This document shows positions 4,509 to 35,728 of a stretch of 35,728 nucleotides of DNA, one piece after another. Position 1 is the first letter of the stretch. The number at the start of each line of letters is the position of its first letter. This stretch comes from Phycisphaerae bacterium (GTDB taxonomy: Bacteria; Planctomycetota; Phycisphaerae; Tepidisphaerales; Tepidisphaeraceae): positions 1 to 35,728 of the forward strand of contig JAICIO010000057.1 of assembly GCA_025924315.1 (NCBI GenBank), in the 5' to 3' direction. A program made the translations under genes and the position numbers. Below the pieces are notes generated by a model. The model was not told the origin of the DNA and did not search any database. It saw only the letters and a list, made by a program, of their open reading frames with translations.

Positions 4509-4543
4509 AATTCCACACGATGGTCATGGAGGACCGTCCCATC

Positions 4544-7500
4544 ATGCGTTTGAAAAAACTCATCCTTCACGGCTTCAAGAGCTTCGCGGATCGAACTGAG
4601 TTCGTGTTCGATTCCCCGATCACCGGCATTGTCGGGCCCAACGGCTGCGGCAAGAGCAACGTCGTCGACGGATTCAAGTGGGTGCTCGGCGAGCAGAGCG
4701 CGAAATCCCTGCGCGGCGAGGCGATGCTCGACGTCATCTTCAACGGCTCCGGCGGGCGCAAGCCGGCCGGCATGGCCGAAGTGGTCCTCGTCTTCGAGAA
4801 CCCCAAGCGCGAAGATGGCTCGCGGCATCTCAACATGGATGTCGATGAAGTCGCCGTCGGCCGCCGTCTCTTCCGCGACGGCACCAGCGAATATCACCTC
4901 AACAATACCGCCTCGCGATTGAAAGACATTCGCGAGCTGTTCCTCGACACCGGCGTGGGCGTCGATGCCTACAGCGTGATCGAGCAGGGCCGCGTCGCGG
5001 CGATGCTCGAATCCAACCCGGCCGAGCGACGCCTCATCTTTGAAGAGGCCGCCGGCATCTCGAAGTACAAGGTCAAAAAGAAAGAAGCCCAGCGCAAGCT
5101 TGAGAAGGTCGATGTCAATCTTACGCGCCTCAACGACATCGTCGAAGAAGTCGAGAAGCGCCTGCGCAGCGTCAAGATCCAGGCCGGCCGCGCGCGAACG
5201 TACCAGGAATATTCCGTTCGGCTCGGCGAGCTGCGCCTCACGTATTCGCTTCAGGAATATCACACGCAGAAGCAGCAGCTGACGAACCTCGAAAGCCAGC
5301 GCGACGACTTCCAGTTCCGCCTCGATGACGCCAGCGGGAATCTCCAGCGATCGCAGAACGCTCTGGCCGAGAAGCGGGAGAATTTCGACGCGCTCTCGCA
5401 GACCAAGCAGCGGCTGGAATACGAGCTCGTGCAGGCTCGCGCCCAGATGCAGTCGGCGCAACAAGCTCAGCAATATGCGACTCAGCAGCTTCAGCAGATC
5501 GCGGATCAACTCGAAGCGTTCGAAGCTGACCGAGTAGCCGCAGAGCAACGGTCTGCGGAGGTCTGCGCGTCTTTGGAGACGGAGCAAACGAATCTCGAAA
5601 CCCTCACCAACGAGCTGAACGAAAAGCGCCAGACGATCGAACAGCGGCAGCAGGCCTTTCGCGACGGGCAGCTTCAGCTCAACGCGCTCGCCCAGCAGAT
5701 CGAGCAGAACAAGTCCGCGATCCTCGACCTCATGCGCAAGCTCGCACAGGTCAACAGCCGACTCGCGTCGATCGAGATCGAACAGAAAAACATCCAGCAG
5801 CAGCAAACGCGCCTGGCGGATCGCCGCCGCGTCGTCGTCGATGAGATCGCGCAGATCGACGCGAAGCGCAGCGAGCTTCAGCAGAAGCTGCAGGAGATCG
5901 TCGCGCGAATCGAGCAGGAACAGATCCAGCTGACCGACAAGCGAAACGAATCCGCGAACCTTGGCAAGCAGATCGCCTCGATCGGCGAACAACTCGGCGC
6001 CGCGAAGGAACATCGCTCGGGTCTCATCTCCCGACAGAAGCTGCTCAAAGATCTCGAAGCGCGAAGAGAAGGCGTGAGCGAAGGCGTGAAGTCCGTCCTC
6101 CGCCAGCGCGAACAGAGCTTCAGCTTCATCGTCGGCCTCGTCGCCGACATCCTGAGAGTCGATGTCGAGCACGCCCACGTGATCGAAGCCGCCCTCGATG
6201 GCCGCGACCAGTGGCTCGTCGCCCAGGACTCCGCTTCGGCTCAAGCCGCGCGCGAAGCCCTCGAAGACCTCGAGGGTCGAGTCAACATCCTCGCCCTCGA
6301 TGAACTGAGCACCTGCGGTCGTGACACGGGCTTTCAGCCCGTGCAGGCCGCGCCGGAAGGTCTGCTCTCGATCGAAGCCGAAGAGCACGGCCTGAAAGGC
6401 CGTGTCACGGAGGCGCCGTATGACTGGCAACGGCACAGTCAACGCATCCGCATCGCGAGCGACCTCATCCGCGTCGAACCGCAATACGCCGCCCTCGCGA
6501 AACACCTTCTCGGTCGGACCGCCGTCGTGGATTCGCTCACCGATGCGGCTGAACTCCACAAGAATGGCCCAACCGATTGGCGTTACGTCACACTGCATGG
6601 CGAAGTCCTCGAAGCCGATGGCACGCTCCGCGCCGGCCCGCTCACCGCCGCGATGGGCCTGCTCTCGCGACGTTCCGAGCTCGAAGCGATCGACGCGCAG
6701 GTCCAGGAAGTCGACGTGCGCATCGCGTCGCTCACCGAACAACTCAGTCACGGCAACGCGAGCGCGAAGGCGCTCGCGGAAGAAGAGAACGCGCTCCGCA
6801 ACGCGATCTACCAATCCAACACGCAGAAGGTCGAGCTCACCAGTCAGATCTCGCAGACGACCGATCGTCTCGGCCTGCTCAACCGCGAGCAACCGCTCCT
6901 CGATCGCGAACTGCAAGGCCTGCTCGATCAGGTCGGCCGTCTCACCGATGAAGACACGCGCCTCACCGAGCAACGTCAGACGCTCGAAGGCGACCAGGTC
7001 TCGCGCCAGCAGTCGATCGAAGAGATGTCCGCCCAGCACGACCAGCTCGCCGAAGACATAAAGCACTGGAACGAAGAGCTGACGACCGCTCGCGTCTCGC
7101 TCGGTCAAGTTCAGGAGAAACAACTCGCGAGCCAGCAACAGGTGCAGCGCCAAACAGCGGCGAAGGCCGAGCTGACTCAGCAGATCGATCGCATCGTGAA
7201 ATCCGCTCAGTCGGTCGCCGCTCGACGCGAATCGGTCGAAGCCGAGCTCGACGAAGCGAAGCGCAACGAAGCCGGTCTCGTGCAGCGTCAAACCGAGCTG
7301 ACCGAAGAGACCGAATCCAAGGCCCGGCTGCTTCAGCAGCAGGGAGAAGAACTCAAGAACCTCACCGGACAGGTCGAGTCGCTTCGCGCCGAACACGCCG
7401 AGCTCGAACACAAGCTGCACAACGTGCAGCTCGAGATCGGCCAGCTCACCGTTCGTCTCGAGACGCTCGTCCAGCGCACGCTCGAAGAGCTGCAGCTCGA

Positions 7501-8353
7501 CGTCCCCGCGAAGTACGCCGAAGCGACCGCGGACGGTCAGGCGTACGATCCCGGCGATACGGATTGGGACGCGGTCGCGGAAGAGATCAAGGAGCTGCGC
7601 GAGAAGATCCAGCGGCTCGGCAACGTCAACCTCGATTCGCTCGGCGAGCTCGAAGAGCTCGAGCCGCGCGCCCAGTTCCTCCGCCAACAGTTCACGGATC
7701 TCACCGATTCGAAGAAGCAGCTCGAAGAGCTGATCGACACGATCAATCGCGAAAGCTCGGTGCGCTTCGAGCAGACCTTCAACGCCGTGCGCGAGCACTT
7801 CCAAGGCATGTTCCGCAAGATCTTCGGCGGAGGTAAGGCCGACATCTTCCTCGAGACCGAGCTGGAAGAAAAAGTGAAAGTGCAGACCGAGGACGGCCAG
7901 ACTGTCACCGAGATCCGCAAGCGCACGCTCGATCCGCTCGAAGCCGGCATCGAAGTGATCGCCCGCCCGCCAGGGAAACAGCCGGTGAGCATCTCGCAAC
8001 TGAGCGGCGGCGAAAAAGCGATGACCTGCATCTCGCTCCTGATGAGCATCTTCAAGAGCAAGCCGAGCCCATTCTGCATCCTCGACGAAGTGGACGCGCC
8101 GCTCGACGAAGCGAACAACCAGCGCTTCGGCATGATCGTGCAGGAGTTCCTCACGCAGAGCCAGTTCATCATCATCACCCACCACAAGCGCACGATGCAG
8201 ATCGCGGACGTGCTGTACGGCGTGACGATGCAAGAACAAGGCGTGAGCAAGCGCGTCGCGGTGAAGTTCGACCAGGTCGGCAAAGACGGTCAGATCCACG
8301 AAAGCGCGACGAAGGCCGAAGAAAAGCCCGAAGGCAAGATTGTCGCCGCCTGA
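4544..8353 (+). CDS. smc: Chromosome segregation protein SMC
   Basis: SMC is the ATPase of the condensin complex that organises and segregates chromosomes, normally with ScpA and ScpB, which are not in the window. The 1269-residue product has the whole architecture: [16 protein letters not shown], Walker [13 protein letters not shown] (residues about 32-43), long coiled coils, a hinge at about 515-670 ([13 protein letters not shown] to [10 protein letters not shown]), a second coiled coil, the ABC signature QLSGGEKAM, and Walker [15 protein letters not shown] near the C-terminus. The ATG at 4544 has GGAGGA 10 nt upstream and gives the standard SMC N-terminus; the in-frame ATG at 4520 overlaps that ribosome site. 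Oddity: residues about 593-623 of the hinge are encoded by an inserted inverted repeat (arms read RDTGFQPV and HGLKGRVT). A short Ala-rich C-terminal tail follows. Confidence 0.97.
6319..6411. repeat. In-frame inverted repeat inside smc (GTGACACGG family)
   Basis: The arm at 6319-6343 (CGTGACACGGGCTTTCAGCC and four more bases) and the inverted arm at 6386-6410 lie within the SMC hinge coding sequence. Each arm is also a small hairpin on its own (CACGGGCT/AGCCCGTG and CACGGCC/GGCCGTG). The frame remains open through the element. An intergenic copy of the same family is at 12555-12610. In planctomycete proteins the peptide DTGFQPV, as read here, is a recurrent repeat-derived segment (general knowledge). 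Confidence 0.88.
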
Positions 8354-9239: not shown

Positions 9240-11345
9240 TCACCCCGGCATGATGTTGATCGGGTTGTAAGGGACGTTCAACCAGTTCATCACGATCCCG
9301 CTGACGAGCCAGAACCCCGCGGCGGCGGATTCGCCTACGATCAGGCCGATGAAGAACGGTTTCGCGGCGGCGTAGGCGCGGGATCCGCCGAATCGGACGA
9401 TGAGCAGCTTCGCGAGCCAACCTAAGAAGATGCTGAACCAGAGCTGGGCGGCGGGGAAGGTGTCGAGCATCAAGTACCCGATCGGATGCAGCGGCCACCA
9501 CGTAAAGCGCAATCGTAGAAAAGCCAACAGGAGTGTGAAGCAGAACCCGAATGTCCAATGCCCCGCGACGCTGGTGGGGCTGTAAAAGGTTTGCCGCTTG
9601 TATTGCACGGTGGCGCTGGAGAGATAGCCGGGGTTGGTCTGCGCGCCCCATTCGTTGATCGGCGTGCGGGCGGAGATGTCGCGCGTCGAGGCGTAGTGGT
9701 ATTCGGTCCAGAGCATGCTCGAGAAACTCGTGAAGTACCCGACGAGGAGTGAGAGAGCGAGAAGGGCGACGATGCGGCGACCGGTCGAGCGCTCGGAGGG
9801 TTCGGGGTTCAGGGTTCGGGGTTCAGTGGCAGAGGCCTTTTCTTCTACTGAACCCTGAACCACGAACCCTGAACCCTCCTTAAACACTGCTTCATCGGTG
9901 AGTTTCAGCCCGTGTGAGGCGTACACCGGCATCGTCTCGCGCATGTCGAAATGGACCGTTTGGAGCATGTGGCACAGGAAAAACGACTTCGTGTTGATCG
10001 CCATTCCCCAGCCGGCGCCGGAGAACATCCGCCATGGTTCGATCAGGGCGACACGCAGCTGACCGTGAACTAAACCCGCCTCGGCGATGATGCGCGTCAG
10101 GACCAAAAATAGCAGAAGCAATAATAGGATCGTGACGACGGCGGCGTGGATCTGGCAACCGGCGAGCATCAGGAAGCCCACCATTACAACGATGCATGCG
10201 ACGAGCCCCCAGAAGGCGAAGCGATATGAGAGATACCGTCCGCGGGGCTCATCGGCGCGTTCGCCACGGAAGGCTTGCCGGATCACCATGCCGAAATGCT
10301 TTCGGCCGATCCAGAAGATCGACAGGGCGAAGGCGATCACCGCGCCGAAGTGTTCGTCGGGTTGACCGTACGGTGTGGGGTCACCATAAAACAACCCCAG
10401 CACCACGCGCTCGCCGTTCCAGAGGATGTAGAAAAACCATAGGCTGAATGCGATCGACGACGGCAGGAAATACGCGGCGCCGACGGCGGTGAAGAAGATC
10501 GCGGAATCCTTGATCTTCGTGTCCACGTACGCCCACGGCGGTTCGCTGAAGAGGCTCCACAGATCGTAGCTCACCGGGATGTGCACGAAATGTTTCGGGT
10601 CGTAGCGGGCCATTCCGTTCCACGCGTGCAGCAGAAAAACCGCGAAAAATGCGATCCAGAAGACGCGTTGCCGCAGGATCTCGTTGAACCAATTGCCCTT
10701 TTTCGGCGCATCGATGAGTGCGAACTCGATCTGTGCAAGCGGGAACGCGAGGCGCTCGTTCTCGAACCATTGCCGGCGGACGATCACGACGATGCACATC
10801 AGTGCGCCGTAAAGCGCCGCGAGAAAAGCGCCCCACGCGAGGATCGGCACGACCCATGCGAAATAGGGTGGCGCGCCGGGACCGGTCCATCGGCCGATGA
10901 ATCCCGTTATCACCGGATCGGTCACCCACTCGCGCGGGGTATTGCCCGAAAATCGTGGAAACAACCAATGCGGCAGATTCCACTGCTCGAGCAGTGCGCG
11001 AAACTCCTGGCTTTCACCGGCATCACGAAATGGGATGATGAGCGACCCAGGCAGGTAGCGCATGAGCCCGCTGCTCGGAAGCGTGCAACTGACAAGCATC
11101 ATCGAGAACGCGACCGCCATCTCGCCGGATGTGAACGCGCGATGTGGCTTCCATCTCGACAACGGCCCGTTGACGAGCAGCGCGAAGAGGAATGCGAGCA
11201 TCACGGCGCCCAGCGGCAGGTTGTTGCCGACGAGGAAGGTGTTGTTCAGCGCGTAGTCGTTGTACGGCGTGAGCGCGCAGATCAGGACCACACCGGCGAG
11301 GCCGATGAAGACGGACCGCCAGGTGATGGCGCGGGTCGGCATCAT
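9240..11345 (-). CDS. DUF6785/DUF6784-like polytopic membrane protein
   Basis: This is a membrane protein of about 701 residues with a dozen or more hydrophobic segments. The conserved-looking parts (PYNDYALNNTFLVGNNLPLGA, SSGLMRYLPGSL, RIIAEAGLVHGQL, and the C-terminal VGESAAAGFWLVSGIVMNWL) fit the large OPT-like membrane proteins that are common in planctomycetes and labelled DUF6785/DUF6784. Transport is likely from topology, but the substrate is unknown. I chose the ATG at 11345, close to the first helix; an ATG at 11342 and a GTG at 11408 are possible, and none has a strong ribosome site. Residues about 490-517, between two membrane segments, are encoded by an in-frame inverted repeat (9795-9879) read as SGFVVQGS...TLNPEP. 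The gene converges with the unknown gene at 8380-9207. Confidence 0.72.
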   Translation of the reverse strand: MMPTRAITWRSVFIGLAGVVLICALTPYNDYALNNTFLVGNNLPLGAVMLAFLFALLVNGPLSRWKPHRAFTSGEMAVAFSMMLVSCTLPSSGLMRYLPGSLIIPFRDAGESQEFRALLEQWNLPHWLFPRFSGNTPREWVTDPVITGFIGRWTGPGAPPYFAWVVPILAWGAFLAALYGALMCIVVIVRRQWFENERLAFPLAQIEFALIDAPKKGNWFNEILRQRVFWIAFFAVFLLHAWNGMARYDPKHFVHIPVSYDLWSLFSEPPWAYVDTKIKDSAIFFTAVGAAYFLPSSIAFSLWFFYILWNGERVVLGLFYGDPTPYGQPDEHFGAVIAFALSIFWIGRKHFGMVIRQAFRGERADEPRGRYLSYRFAFWGLVACIVVMVGFLMLAGCQIHAAVVTILLLLLLFLVLTRIIAEAGLVHGQLRVALIEPWRMFSGAGWGMAINTKSFFLCHMLQTVHFDMRETMPVYASHGLKLTDEAVFKEGSGFVVQGSVEEKASATEPRTLNPEPSERSTGRRIVALLALSLLVGYFTSFSSMLWTEYHYASTRDISARTPINEWGAQTNPGYLSSATVQYKRQTFYSPTSVAGHWTFGFCFTLLLAFLRLRFTWWPLHPIGYLMLDTFPAAQLWFSIFLGWLAKLLIVRFGGSRAYAAAKPFFIGLIVGESAAAGFWLVSGIVMNWLNVPYNPINIMPG
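9795..9879. repeat. In-frame inverted repeat, GGGTTCGGGG family, copy 1
   Basis: Arms at 9795-9827 and 9847-9879 consist of alternating GGGTTCGGGGTTCA-type words facing their complements. The element is inside the DUF6785-like coding region and keeps the frame. On the coding strand it reads EGSGFVVQGS then TLNPEPSE. The second copy, in the VWA gene at 23100-23187, is read in the same frame and orientation. Confidence 0.88.
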
Positions 11346-11468
11346 GGGATCGAGCGTTGGAAGTGGACGACCAGCGTGGATGTGCTCGCTAGGTTCGCTC
11401 CGGGGCACGCGCCGCAGTGTACCGAGGCGCCGGCGGGGGCGTAAACCAAAGAGGATCCGGCGCGCAAG

Positions 11469-12525: not shown

Positions 12526-12554
12526 GTGTGATTCTATGTGAGCGAATGTGCTTT

Positions 12555-12610
12555 CAACGTGACACGGCCTTCCAGGCCGTGCGCATGGCCTGAAAGGCCA
12601 TGTCACGTTG
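12555..12610. repeat. Interspersed inverted repeat, GTGACACGG family, intergenic copy
   Basis: The arms 12555-12581 and 12584-12610 (CAACGTGACACGGCC facing GGCCATGTCACGTTG) form an almost perfect long palindrome with a 2-nt centre. It lies between the divergent tetR and mddA-like genes. The same family occurs inside smc at 6319-6411. Here it starts 30 nt upstream of the TetR start codon and so could affect the tetR leader. Confidence 0.85.
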
Positions 12611-12646
12611 AACTCATCGTAGACTCTGATGCTGAGGTTGACCCGT

Positions 12647-14158: not shown

Positions 14159-14239
14159 TGTCATCCTGAGCGCAGCGAAGGATCTCGAATTCGGAAATCG
14201 CTTTGGAACCCCGAGATTCTTCGCTGCGCTCAGAATGAC
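14159..14239. repeat. Interspersed inverted repeat, CATCCTGAGCGCAGCGAAGG family, copy 1
   Basis: The arm 14159-14187 (GTCATCCTGAGCGCAGCGAA onward) faces the complementary arm 14212-14239. Further copies are at 17662-17740 and 27916-27997. The arms are nearly identical among copies while the loops differ, so the arms are the conserved unit. It lies 38 nt past the mutM stop. Confidence 0.9.
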
Positions 14240-14277
14240 GCGCGTGCGCTGCGTGAAGGGAGTGAGCAGATTGGAGT

Positions 14278-17612: not shown

Positions 17613-17826
17613 AAGAAGCCAGAAGCCAGGAGCCAGAAGCGGGACGGAGATGAAACGCGACGTCATCCTGAGCGCAGCGAAGGATCTCGAAATCGGAACA
17701 CGCGCTCCATATCGAGATCCTTCGCTTCGCTCAGGATGACAGGCAGGCCGTAATGGTTGAATGACGATGGTCGAGCAGTATCCGACATTCTCTTCTTCTG
17801 GCTTCTGGCTCCTGGCTTCTGGTTTC
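17613..17826. repeat. Nested inverted repeats before and into the BatA-like gene
   Basis: The outer arms, 17613-17640 (AAGAAGCCAGAAGCCAGGAG onward) and 17792-17826, enclose a complete copy of the CATCCTGAGCGCAGCGAAGG family (17662-17740). The right outer arm lies inside the open frame that starts at 17761, so it either encodes residues 11-22 or forms the leader if translation starts at 17863. Confidence 0.85.
17662..17740. repeat. Interspersed inverted repeat, CATCCTGAGCGCAGCGAAGG family, copy 2
   Basis: The arms 17662-17690 and 17711-17740 are the inner element of the nested structure upstream of the BatA-like gene. They are nearly identical in the arms to the copies at 14159-14239 and 27916-27997. 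Confidence 0.9.
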
Positions 17827-20937: not shown

Positions 20938-21090
20938 ACACGGATGAACACAGATAAGAAAAAGGTCCACGAAGAACACGAAGGGTCACGAATAAAATAC
21001 TTAAGCGGAATACTTCTTCGTGTTTCTTCGTGTTCCTTCGTGGACAAAAGCATTCGTTATCTGTGTCCATCGGTGTTCATCTGTGGTTCC
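20924..21090. repeat. Nested inverted repeats between map and the second VWA gene
   Basis: The outer arms 20924-20957 (GGAACCACAGATGAACACGG onward) and 21057-21090 pair over 34 positions with two mismatches. The inner arms 20965-20993 (GTCCACGAAGAACACGAAGG onward) and 21014-21045 belong to the CACGAAGG family, also found at 13545-13624. One repeat has inserted in, or grown within, the loop of another. The outer left arm supplies the map stop codon. Confidence 0.92.
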
Positions 21091-21098
21091 AACTGATT

Positions 21099-23597
21099 AT
21101 GCAGCGAGTTTGGGAAATTCTCCTGGGGCTTCGTCGCGGGTTTCTCTCGCAGCAGGGGGATTTTGCGCTGTCGTTCAATCCGCAGTGGCCGGGGCAATCG
21201 GTGGTGGGGGCGGCGACGTGGAATGTGTTGCTGGCGATCGTGGCGCTCTTGCTGGTGATCTATGTCTACCGCCATGAGGGAAAATCGCGCGGCGTAAAGA
21301 TCGTGCTTGGCGTGTTGCGCGGGGCGCTGCTCGCGCTGGTGATCGCGCTCTTGAATCGGCCGGTGTTGACATTAGGACAGAGCCGCACGGAGCCGTCGGT
21401 CGTCGCGATCATGGTTGACGACAGCATTTCCATGCGCGTCCGCGATGTTCCGACCGGGGCGAATGAAGCGGAGTCGCGGTTGGAAGGGGCCATGCAACTG
21501 CTCGGCGATAAAGACCGGGGATTGATCAAAGATCTGTCGTCCAAGCATCAGGTGAAGTTGTATCGGTTTGATTCGACGGCCCAGCCGATCACGGAAAAAG
21601 GACGCGAAACCGCAAGCGGCGATCGAACGTCGCTTGCGATTTCGCGTCCGTCTACCGAGCCTTTCGATATTGAGCCAACCGGGCAGAATACCCAGGTTGC
21701 AAAATCGATTCGTGGAGTGCTCGACGATCTTCAGGGTCAGCGGCTTGCAGGTGTCGTCGTGCTGACGGACGGGCGCGATACGCCCGCAGAGCCGCTCGCT
21801 GAAGCGATCGACGCGGTGAAAGAGTTTGGGGTGAAGGTGTATCCCGTCGCCGTCGGGTCGGAATCGGCGCCGAAGAACATTGATATTCAATCCGTCAGCG
21901 TGCAGGACAGCGCGTTCAAAGGCGACATCGTCAACATTCGCGTCGCGGTTCGAGCCACCGGCTTTGAGCCGAATCATCCGGTCACACTTCAGCTGAAGGA
22001 CAAGAAGTCCGGTCGGCCGATGCTGGATCTCAATGGCAATCCGGTTGAGGCGAAGGTGACGCTGCCGGACAGCAATCCGGTCGAGGCGGAGCTGCAGTTT
22101 CAGCCCATGGATGTGGGTCCGCTGGATCTGACGATCGAAGCGGTGAAGCAGGCGGGGGAGATTGATGACGCCGACAACATTCGCACCGCGCAGATCAACG
22201 TGCTCGACGCGAAGATCAGCGTGCTGTACGTCGATGGATATCCGCGGTGGGAGTATCGGTATCTGAAGACCGAGATGATCCGCGACAAGACAGTGGATAT
22301 TTCGTGCCTGCTGACCAGCGCCGATCCGACGTTTCGCCAGGAGGGCGATAAGCCGATCACGCGGTTTCCGGAATCGATTGAGGAAATGCTCGACTACGAC
22401 GTCGTGCTTTTCGGCGATGTCGATCCGCGACAGTTTTCGGATGCGCAGTTACAGCTGGTGAACGATTTCGTCGCGAATCGCGGCGGCGGATTCGGGATGG
22501 TCGCGGGACCGCGCTGGAGTCCGGCGGCGTATCACAACACGGCCATTGAGCCGATCCTGCCGGTGAACATCACGAAAGTGCAGCCCGACGATTCGAAGAC
22601 GTCGATCACGCAGGGATTTCGCCCGAGCGTGACGAAGCTGGGGTACGACTCGTCGATCTTCCGCTTCTTCGCGGATCGGGATGCGAATGAGAAGTTTCTC
22701 AAGGATCAGCTGCAGCTGATCTTCTGGTATTGCAAAGGCGTGACGACGAAAGCCGGCGTCGGCGAAGTGTACGCGGAGCATCCGACGGACATGGGACCGG
22801 ATGGCCGCAAGGCGCCGCTGCTGGTTTTGGGGCGGTTTGGGGCGGGGCGAACGCTCTTCTCCGCGATTGATGATTCGTGGCGATGGCGGTTCTATACCGG
22901 CGAGTCGGTTTTCGACACGTACTGGGTGCAGCAACTGCGGTATCTGGCGCGGAGTAAGAAGCTGGGCCAGCGCCGGCTCACGTTTACTTCCTTGCGTCCG
23001 ACCTATGAGCTGGGACAGCAAGTCCACGTGCAGATGCGCGTGGTCGATCCGAAGTTGCTGCAGCAACTTCCGAATGAGCTTCGCGTCGAAGTGACCGAAG
23101 AGGGTTCAGGGTTCGGGGTTCAGGGTTCAGGAACAACCCACCCCGCGACTTCTTCACTGAACCCTGAACCCCGAACCCCGAACCCTTCTGGTGCCGTGGT
23201 GCGACAGGAAACGCTCGTGAAGGAAGAGGGACAGCCGGATCTATATGTTGCATCGTGGACGGCGGATCGGATTGGTCGATTCGTCGCGAAGCTTCCACCG
23301 ATCGTCGGTGGGGTGGACGAGATGAATCTGCCCGTCGAGGTGATGGTGCCGAAGCTTGAGCTTGCCCAGCCGCAGGTTGATCGGGCGTCGCTCAATCGTT
23401 TGGCGACGGAGACGATGGGCCAGACCGTGACCCTCGCGGACGCCGAGCAAAAACTGCCGAACCTCATCCAAAGCGCCGCGAAGGTCATTCCCATCGAATC
23501 GAGCCAGCGCCTGTGGGACGCACCTTTGGTTCTGATTCTGTTCGTTTTTCTGATTACGACGGAATGGGTGATGCGTAAGATTTACGGCATGGTGTAG
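21099..23597 (+). CDS. Membrane protein with VWA and amidotransferase-like domains
   Basis: This 832-residue protein belongs to the second, longer VWA type found next to MoxR clusters. It has two N-terminal helices (about residues 40-58 and 70-88), a VWA domain with the metal motif DDSISM, and later GVVVLTDGRDTP. A long extracytoplasmic region follows with VLYVDGYPRWEYRYLK and a glutamine-amidotransferase-like part (DYDVVLFGDVDPRQF, GGGFGMVAGPRWSP). A C-terminal helix comes last (PLVLILFVFLITTEWVMRK). The ATG at 21099 was chosen because the 23 in-frame codons upstream are pure repeat sequence. Residues about 668-697 are encoded by an in-frame inverted repeat (23100-23187), giving SGFGVQGS...LNPEPRTPNP. 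The stop TAG runs into the next repeat. It probably works with the BatA-like protein in the membrane. Confidence 0.9.
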   Translation: MQRVWEILLGLRRGFLSQQGDFALSFNPQWPGQSVVGAATWNVLLAIVALLLVIYVYRHEGKSRGVKIVLGVLRGALLALVIALLNRPVLTLGQSRTEPSVVAIMVDDSISMRVRDVPTGANEAESRLEGAMQLLGDKDRGLIKDLSSKHQVKLYRFDSTAQPITEKGRETASGDRTSLAISRPSTEPFDIEPTGQNTQVAKSIRGVLDDLQGQRLAGVVVLTDGRDTPAEPLAEAIDAVKEFGVKVYPVAVGSESAPKNIDIQSVSVQDSAFKGDIVNIRVAVRATGFEPNHPVTLQLKDKKSGRPMLDLNGNPVEAKVTLPDSNPVEAELQFQPMDVGPLDLTIEAVKQAGEIDDADNIRTAQINVLDAKISVLYVDGYPRWEYRYLKTEMIRDKTVDISCLLTSADPTFRQEGDKPITRFPESIEEMLDYDVVLFGDVDPRQFSDAQLQLVNDFVANRGGGFGMVAGPRWSPAAYHNTAIEPILPVNITKVQPDDSKTSITQGFRPSVTKLGYDSSIFRFFADRDANEKFLKDQLQLIFWYCKGVTTKAGVGEVYAEHPTDMGPDGRKAPLLVLGRFGAGRTLFSAIDDSWRWRFYTGESVFDTYWVQQLRYLARSKKLGQRRLTFTSLRPTYELGQQVHVQMRVVDPKLLQQLPNELRVEVTEEGSGFGVQGSGTTHPATSSLNPEPRTPNPSGAVVRQETLVKEEGQPDLYVASWTADRIGRFVAKLPPIVGGVDEMNLPVEVMVPKLELAQPQVDRASLNRLATETMGQTVTLADAEQKLPNLIQSAAKVIPIESSQRLWDAPLVLILFVFLITTEWVMRKIYGMV
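23100..23187. repeat. In-frame inverted repeat, GGGTTCGGGG family, copy 2
   Basis: The arms 23100-23130 and 23157-23187 face each other inside the VWA gene. They are read as SGFGVQGS and LNPEPRTPNP, the same frame and orientation as the copy in the DUF6785-like gene (9795-9879). The loop sequences differ. Confidence 0.9.
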
Positions 23598-27915: not shown

Positions 27916-27997
27916 TGTCATCCTGAGCGCAGCGAAGGATCTCGGGATGGCAAGACGTGTTCAATATCGAGATCCTTCGCTGCGCTCAGGATGACAC
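27916..27997. repeat. Interspersed inverted repeat, CATCCTGAGCGCAGCGAAGG family, copy 3
   Basis: The arms 27916-27944 and 27968-27997 are almost perfectly complementary. The element lies between the coiled-coil gene and the secreted prenyltransferase-fold gene, ending 7 nt before the latter's ATG, so it occupies the place where a ribosome site would be expected. Confidence 0.92.
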
Positions 27998-29090: not shown

Positions 29091-30469
29091 TGCGATTTAT
29101 GTCGAATGCTTTTGGTAGGGTGCGCTTCAGCGCAGCGGTTATTCGTCTTTTCGGGGCGAATGAAATAACCGGTGCGCTGACGCGCACCCTACACGAGCGC
29201 GTCGGACCGCAACGTAGGGTCCGCTTCAGCGGACCGGTTACTCTTTTCTCGAGCGGAGAAGTAACCGGTCCGCTAAAGCGGACCCTACAAGGCCTGTCAG
29301 TATTGCTCGTTCTTCTTGTTGGTTCTTCTTCATTCGCCCAAGACGACTGGACCCTCACCACCGCCGATTTCCAATCGCATCGCGTGACGCTCTCGGCCGT
29401 TTCCGATTCCGGCATACAGGTCATCGAATCGGGAAAGGCGGCGACGATTCCGCTCGATCAATTCCTCGATCTCGATCGAATGGTGACCGCGCCAGCTTCG
29501 CCGTCCATGATCGTGTATCTCATCGGTGGCGATCGCCTCACGGGAATGCCGTTGGGCATCAAAGACGAGCAATTGCAGTGGAAGCAACCACTTCTCGGCG
29601 AGGTGAAGCTTCCGCTGAAGCGCATCGTCGCGATCGCGAAGGCCGGGCAAAATCCGCCGCGGGAGGATGAGGCGCGCACGGAGGATGTGGCGACGCTCGC
29701 CAATGGCGATACGGTTCACGGCATCGTCGCCACGCTCACGAGCGACACCGCCACGATTAGCGCAAACGGTCAGGATGTTCCCGTCCCGCTGTCATCGATC
29801 AACGTGCTCTCGTTCGCTTCGACCGGCGAAGCGAAACCGCCGCCGCCCGCGCGCGGTTTCCGCGTCTCGCTCGCGGATGGGTCCGCGTTTACCGGAACCA
29901 AAATCGAGCTGCAAAAGGATAGCCTCCGCCTCACGCCCGGAACCGGCGATGCGCGCAGCATTCCGCTGCCCAGCGTCGCGCGCATCGAGCAAACCAACGG
30001 CCCCGTCAGCTGGCTCGTCTCACGCACGCCGACTGAGAACGTGCAGATTCCGTACTTCGCGTCGCAAACCCAGCCTGCGAAGATGGGCCTGAGCGTCGAT
30101 GGACAACCGATCCGCGTCGGCGACAAAACCTATCCGCATTCCATCGGCGTCCATTCCTATTCGCGGCTCGTTTACGCACTTGATCCCGCGTACAAAACGT
30201 TCCGCACCGAATTCGCGATCGACGGCAATCTGCCCTACGCCAACGTCACGATCCGCATCAAGCTCGACGCCAAAGTCGTGCACGAGCAAAAAGACGTCAC
30301 CACCAACACGCCGCTCAAGCCCGTCGTGCTCGAACTGAACGGCGCCAAGCAGCTCACGCTCGAAGTCGATTACGGTAAAACCTACGACGTGCAGGACCGC
30401 CTCAACTGGATCGAGCCGGCGTTGCTGAAAACTGCTCCGCCCGCCTCTACTCCCTCAACTCAGCCATAA
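29090..30469 (+). CDS. Secreted NPCBM-domain protein with repeat-interrupted signal peptide
   Basis: This is a 459-residue protein. Its C-terminal domain (about residues 318-452) has the NPCBM/NEW2 hallmarks YPHSIGVHSYSRLVYAL, FRTEFAIDG, VTIRIKLDAKVVHE and LTLEVDYG, a carbohydrate-binding beta-sandwich. The middle part contains beta-rich repeats with LADGSAFTGTKIEL-like words. The start ATG overlaps the stop of the upstream gene. Oddly, the first eight residues (MRFMSNAF) are separated from the hydrophobic core LSVLLVLLVGSSSFAQ by about 58 residues encoded by two tandem inverted repeats (29115-29288). Either translation really starts at 29090 and export tolerates a long n-region, or an internal start after the repeats is used; I see no ATG there. 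It is probably exported and bound to sugars of the envelope. Confidence 0.85.
   Translation: MRFMSNAFGRVRFSAAVIRLFGANEITGALTRTLHERVGPQRRVRFSGPVTLFSSGEVTGPLKRTLQGLSVLLVLLVGSSSFAQDDWTLTTADFQSHRVTLSAVSDSGIQVIESGKAATIPLDQFLDLDRMVTAPASPSMIVYLIGGDRLTGMPLGIKDEQLQWKQPLLGEVKLPLKRIVAIAKAGQNPPREDEARTEDVATLANGDTVHGIVATLTSDTATISANGQDVPVPLSSINVLSFASTGEAKPPPPARGFRVSLADGSAFTGTKIELQKDSLRLTPGTGDARSIPLPSVARIEQTNGPVSWLVSRTPTENVQIPYFASQTQPAKMGLSVDGQPIRVGDKTYPHSIGVHSYSRLVYALDPAYKTFRTEFAIDGNLPYANVTIRIKLDAKVVHEQKDVTTNTPLKPVVLELNGAKQLTLEVDYGKTYDVQDRLNWIEPALLKTAPPASTPSTQP
29115..29192. repeat. In-frame inverted repeat, GTAGGGTGCGCTTCAGCGC family, unit 1
   Basis: The arms 29115-29143 and 29164-29192 lie within the coding start of the NPCBM gene and read GRVRFSAAVI and EITGALTRTL. 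The same family is present as a perfect copy at 35647-35724 and as a single arm at 33697-33725. Confidence 0.9.
29214..29288. repeat. In-frame inverted repeat, GTAGGGTCCGCTTCAGCGG variant, unit 2
   Basis: The arms 29214-29242 and 29260-29288 form a second tandem unit, read in the same frame as unit 1 (RRVRFSGPVT and EVTGPLKRTL). All GTGCGC words are replaced by GTCCGC and the partner words by GCGGAC, so the pairing is preserved. It is a distinct subfamily. Confidence 0.9.
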
Positions 30470-35626: not shown

Positions 35627-35646
35627 TGTTTGTGGGTGATTGTGTT

Positions 35647-35724
35647 CGTAGGGTGCGCTTCAGCGCACCGGTTATTCGCCTTTCGAACGGGAGAAATAAC
35701 CGGTGCGCTGAAGCGCACCCTACG
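35647..35724. repeat. Perfect inverted repeat, GTAGGGTGCGCTTCAGCGC family
   Basis: The arms 35647-35676 and 35695-35724 are perfect inverted copies over 30 nt with an 18-nt loop. Each arm contains GGTGCGCTTCAGCGCACC, itself a hairpin. It is the reference copy for the units at 29115-29192 and the single arm at 33697-33725. Confidence 0.95.
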
Positions 35725-35728
35725 AGAA

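Follow-up and report, generated by a model that had tools for sequence, protein, structure and literature searches.

Among described repeats, the closest counterparts of the element reported here are the GTAG-tagged REPs, short tagged palindromes that form inverted dimers and lie mostly between genes (Di Nocera et al., 2013; PMC3733652). Some of them are intragenic and read in frame, adding 20-30 residues to the protein, often in replication or repair genes, and their hosts include the PVC group; in recB of two Xanthomonas, different REPs occupy roughly one site (PMC3733652). The published GTAG set permits degenerate tags, for example GTGG in O. terrae GTAG-20; a GTGA tag is not listed in that set, and smc is not mentioned in the text of the paper (PMC3733652). 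Rickettsia palindromic elements, known in protein genes since 2000 (PMC2229807), are likewise described as interspersed repeats that are translated in frame within conserved genes and tolerated there (Ogata et al., 2000, 2002; PMC2229807, PMC3733652). In-frame REPs and Rickettsia palindromic elements are therefore already known, DNA-repair genes included.

The window, i.e., the whole stretch of 35,728 nucleotides that was analysed, is one entire contig (C57) of the 6.57-Mb planctomycete assembly of Phycisphaerae bacterium (here G000; other G-codes denote comparison genomes). It carries smc (4520-8353, plus strand; 1277 aa; Pfam SMC_N, E=4e-64; SMC_hinge, E=5e-15, residues 537-679), the single SMC_hinge gene found in a search of this genome. 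The nearest named relatives of its product are in genomes of Phycisphaerales, Humisphaera, and Tepidisphaeraceae (Phycisphaerae). An inverted repeat within smc that keeps the frame had been claimed in a sequence-only reading, and its position and open frame proved correct; the exact bounds are 6320-6409, giving 90 nt or 30 codons of a head-to-head pair of REP-like palindromes. The order on the plus strand is CGTGACACGGGCTTTCAGCCCGTG, then 42 nt, then CACGGCCTGAAAGGCCGTGTCACG, and both arms are in codon phase 0, with the translation RDTGFQPV...HGLKGRVT. The left arm (6320-6343) is a GTGA-tagged hairpin read as RDTGFQPV, one edit away from the own-genome copy CGTGACACGGGCTTTCCAGCCCGTG; the middle (6344-6385) encodes 14 residues; and the right, inverted arm (6386-6409) is read as HGLKGRVT and is also one edit away from an own-genome copy. 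Each arm pairs with the other, and both pair with an intergenic copy of two inverted REPs (12553-12612), in line with that reading, which had assigned the two repeats to one family. The predicted folding energy of the 90-nt insert is -51.3 kcal/mol, against a mean of -32.7 for dinucleotide shuffles (z = -5.1). Positions 6100-6600 gave no match in Rfam.

The arm family is dispersed in this genome. The genome-wide search for the arm that had been proposed as a check located GTGACACGGSCTTTCCAGSCCGTG with at most two mismatches in 24 places, compared with none for a reversed-pattern control, and 13 further family genomes gave no match. A looser pattern was found in 188 places versus 19 for the control, and these are mostly other GTGGCAC-type repeats. 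A typical copy consists of back-to-back hairpins of about 57-59 nt; most copies are paired plus and minus arms, that is, inverted head-to-head dimers, and most of those examined lie in an intergenic-looking context. The element is thus a short, high-copy, mostly intergenic palindrome, as in the REP/GTAG superfamily, with 24 close copies in G000 and hundreds of copies in relatives. The smc copy departs from the typical form in two ways: each arm is one base short of the commonest 25-nt form, and the intergenic copies have a shorter middle, in which (L001-L030 compared) no counterpart of the 42 nt was seen. Given these departures, the insertion is not necessarily recent. The remainder of the earlier interpretation stands, namely that an interspersed repeat lies in frame in a loop that many relatives lack. 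Several further interspersed palindrome families (GTCATCCTGAGCG..., GTAGGGTGCGC...) are present between genes of the window, at 14159-14240, 17662-17741, 27916-27996, 29110-29290, and 35645-35728.

Alignment with the solved hinges of T. maritima (1gxj) and G. stearothermophilus (5h69) places the insert between the two conserved hinge blocks. The modelled G000 hinge matches the fold of the solved SMC hinges, which have only a short segment at the position of the 30-residue insert. Among 39 aligned SMC proteins, the interval from the 'VNxLCTDRL' strand to 'YDWNxHPQRIRLA' spans approximately 8-11 residues in G006, G008, G019, G023, and G024 and approximately 39 residues in G000. As judged by this alignment, which had been suggested as a check and showed a clean additional segment, 6320-6409 is extra sequence relative to the short-loop relatives. 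AlphaFold2, supplied with a 55-sequence alignment, gave pLDDT values of mostly 92-98 for the hinge blocks and 55-58 for the insert, which is without secondary structure; it is thus predicted to be disordered on an otherwise confident hinge. A class survey took in G000 and 109 Phycisphaerae of 97% completeness or more; the span of the full-length hinge matches was 315-375 nt throughout except in G000 (429 nt), a few split or partial matches not being judgeable by span.

The site in smc is not a one-off, a point that the sequence-only reading lacked. Searches at the family and order levels gave an identical set of 26 genomes, and within Tepidisphaeraceae palindromic inserts occupy the same loop in five genera besides that of G000: G001 and G022 (one genus), G010, G015, G016, and G021. 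In each of these five genera, the repeat type of the insert is interspersed in the genome that carries it. The type GTGGCAYGGGCGNCTCGCCCRTG has 426 copies in G001, 114 in G022, 426 in G021, and 48 in G010 (reversed control, 0), and the type of the G016 insert, GTRGCAYGGGCTNCNAGCCCRTG, has 473 copies in G016 and 0-1 in G001, G022, G021, and G010. The G015 loop holds a CCCTCACCC-CCCTCTCCC repeat, and CCCTCACCCTNNCCCTCTCCC occurs in 37 places in G015, the smc copy at C221:5423 included. The smc arms of G021 are identical to intergenic copies. Those of G010, with their unusual GTATCAC tag, recur exactly elsewhere in the genome; compensatory evolution of the arms in smc, at which the GTATCAC/GTGATAC stem had hinted, was rejected on this ground. 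When 22 smc genes were scanned, all inverted repeats (seven of seven) fell in the 3,069 nt of hinge loop and none in the remaining 77,373 nt of smc sequence from these 22 genomes.

Two genomes from other Phycisphaerae families also have repeats of their own at the loop, unrelated to those of Tepidisphaeraceae. G025 carries a GGGTGCCACACTTTG... element with 27 matches in 359 kb (reversed control, 0), and in G058, a member of the same family, the hinge match is of ordinary length. G034 carries a single CCCTTCGGCTGGCTCAGGGCAGG repeat; because one weaker copy only was found in 304 kb, this case is less certain. Long loops of unrelated sequence in relatives had been named as an observation that would tell against insertion; three such non-palindromic loops exist, and many relatives have short ones. 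The three, in G011 (L066), G004 (L065), and G003 (L071), contain no detected repeat and are perhaps decayed insertions; the loop therefore lengthens by other routes too.

The six GT-type smc elements (tagged GTGA in G000, GTGG in G001, G022, and G021, GTAT in G010, and GTAG in G016) are 60, 90, 102, 117, 117, and 135 nt long, and phase 0 is kept in all six. In G021, by the spacings of its listed pairs, 18 of 36 are 137 nt long, which is not a multiple of three. Insertion points are only a few codons apart, and the loop is difficult to align. In the smc tree, G019 (no insert) is sister to G001 plus G022, and G009 and G002 (no insert) group with G015; a single origin of the insert was recovered in 0% of bootstrap trees, although the tree does not resolve its backbone. 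In the comparison of G001 with G022, identity is 24 of 24 and 21 of 23 positions in the arms (45 of 47 in sum), 83-85% in the flanks, and 62% in the middle. By this comparison, the middle drifts freely and the arms are held or refreshed.

Since the loop holds other repeats in relatives, each native to its genome, the hinge linker can be regarded as a recurrent, tolerated landing site. The identity of the elements, their own-genome families, the shared loop, the clean absence of inserts in relatives, the strict frame, and the predicted disorder make it probable that own-genome REP-type elements, tolerated in frame, have settled in the linker repeatedly and independently. Because the sequences in G015, G025, and G034 are unrelated, and the GT-type cases are additional, at least four independent events are suggested (three without G034), of which the five GT-type genera may represent one to five. 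The common codon phase of the GT-type elements fits selection for frame; it also fits shared ancestry followed by conversion of the arms.

An alternative account would start from a single ancestral insertion in the family that several genera later lost and whose arms track the REPs of each genome by gene conversion. Because the GT-type genera share both a reading phase common to the two arms of all six elements and similar tags across five genera, some of them may descend from one old, arm-converted insertion, and the lack of resolution in the tree backbone, together with the G001 and G022 arms being more alike than their flanks around a diverged middle, would be compatible with this. As an explanation of the whole pattern it is nevertheless rather unlikely: the insert of G015 belongs to an unrelated family and is absent from the sister genomes, G025 and G034 belong to other families, and the arms in G000, G010, G016, and G021 follow the types of their own genomes.

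Selection for the inserts, with a function for the mRNA hairpin or the added loop, e.g., through a translation pause between the coiled-coil halves or altered hinge contacts, is considered improbable. The strength of the predicted hairpins, the conservation of the G001 and G022 arms above their flanks, and the repeated occupation of the loop could all be cited for it, but the insert is absent from most relatives, its middle diverges faster than the smc gene, and similar inserts occur in unrelated genes (DUF6785, HrpA-type helicase, M24 peptidase, tRNA synthetase). There is an equally slight chance that the linker is a preferred and not just a tolerant target, with hairpins kept through ribosome slowing or with a DNA structure that attracts the transposase. 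Chance palindromes in ordinary loop-length variation, or an assembly artefact, are scarcely credible despite the three relatives with long non-palindromic loops, as own-genome copies stand against control counts of zero, the repeats are confined to the loop, and the frames are intact in separately assembled genomes.

Under repeated independent occupation, a REP-type element comprising two inverted short hairpins and a spacer would have landed in frame in the linker. The linker is a surface loop between the hinge halves; therefore a disordered extension of 20-45 residues would be tolerated there, and in-frame insertions would survive. Most likely, REP-type elements enter many places, and those that persist in coding DNA are the ones inserted in frame into tolerant loops, presumably retained by neutrality and not by function. 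The genomes of this lineage hold tens to hundreds of such elements, and the linker would be filled repeatedly from each genome's own REP families. RAYT/Y1 transposases are the usual suspects for REP-type insertion, and the probable route would be through single-stranded DNA with an enzyme of this type. Y1 transposase genes are present in 26 of 26 family genomes, those free of inserts included. At the eight Y1 loci examined in G000, no GTGACAC element lies near the gene, so none of them is a RAYT (Y1) gene flanked by the same REP, and the mobilising enzyme is thus a putative one. Two of the eight have other repeats, a GTAGGG repeat and a GTGGCACAG repeat, at 151-177 nt from the gene.

In-frame repeats in G000 are not special to smc. 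A coding/intergenic census of 436 kb of this genome yielded 92 strong inverted repeats, 10 of them within codon-biased frames, and at least four genes besides smc look like carriers of true in-frame inserts. The DUF6785 membrane-protein gene (9240-11408, minus strand) has a GGGTTCAGGGTTCGGG-type repeat at 9797-9878 (minus strand) between its two Pfam domains; the insert, at residues about 509-540, falls in a gap between homologue matches (6-508 and 531-722). A repeat of the same kind lies at 23101-23186 (plus strand) in the GATase1-like gene (21030-23597), and CGCTTGCGG-type repeats lie in frame in an HrpA-type helicase (L177:9164-13162) and an M24 peptidase (L184:3361-4767), both on the minus strand. 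Two repeats in long codon-biased reading frames for a glycosyltransferase and GidA (contig C1) were set aside; each lies ahead of the domain annotated there, and probably upstream of the true start. In G004, a class I tRNA synthetase reading frame (L240, 1-2439, minus strand) contains the same translated repeat as the DUF6785 insert, GSGFSVQGS...LNPEP.

These natural, replicated insertions in a normally single-copy chromosome organiser show where the hinge accepts 20-45 extra residues, which may be of use for tagging. With filled and empty sites available in a single gene, one can study how REPs enter coding DNA and whether essential genes are struck at random. The inserts also call for caution, as protein families of these planctomycetes include translated repeats foreign to the ancestral protein. 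A literature search, with most subscription papers outside its range, found no report of a REP insertion in smc, and, as far as could be found, the recurrent occupation of a single SMC linker by unrelated repeats is new. Insertion in frame into conserved protein genes (smc, DUF6785, and others) is a feature shared with Rickettsia palindromic elements, which have a CGTC tag and Rickettsia or Wolbachia hosts; the sequences and tags here differ, the G000 insert has no CGTC-tagged end, and its host groups with Tepidisphaeraceae, not Rickettsiales. The likeness to intragenic GTAG REPs extends to short tagged palindromes, inverted dimers, and partial location in frame. However, the tag there is GTAG and here GTGA (GTGG, GTAG, or GTAT in relatives), and here at least three unrelated repeat types, across several genera and three families, have taken up one site in smc.
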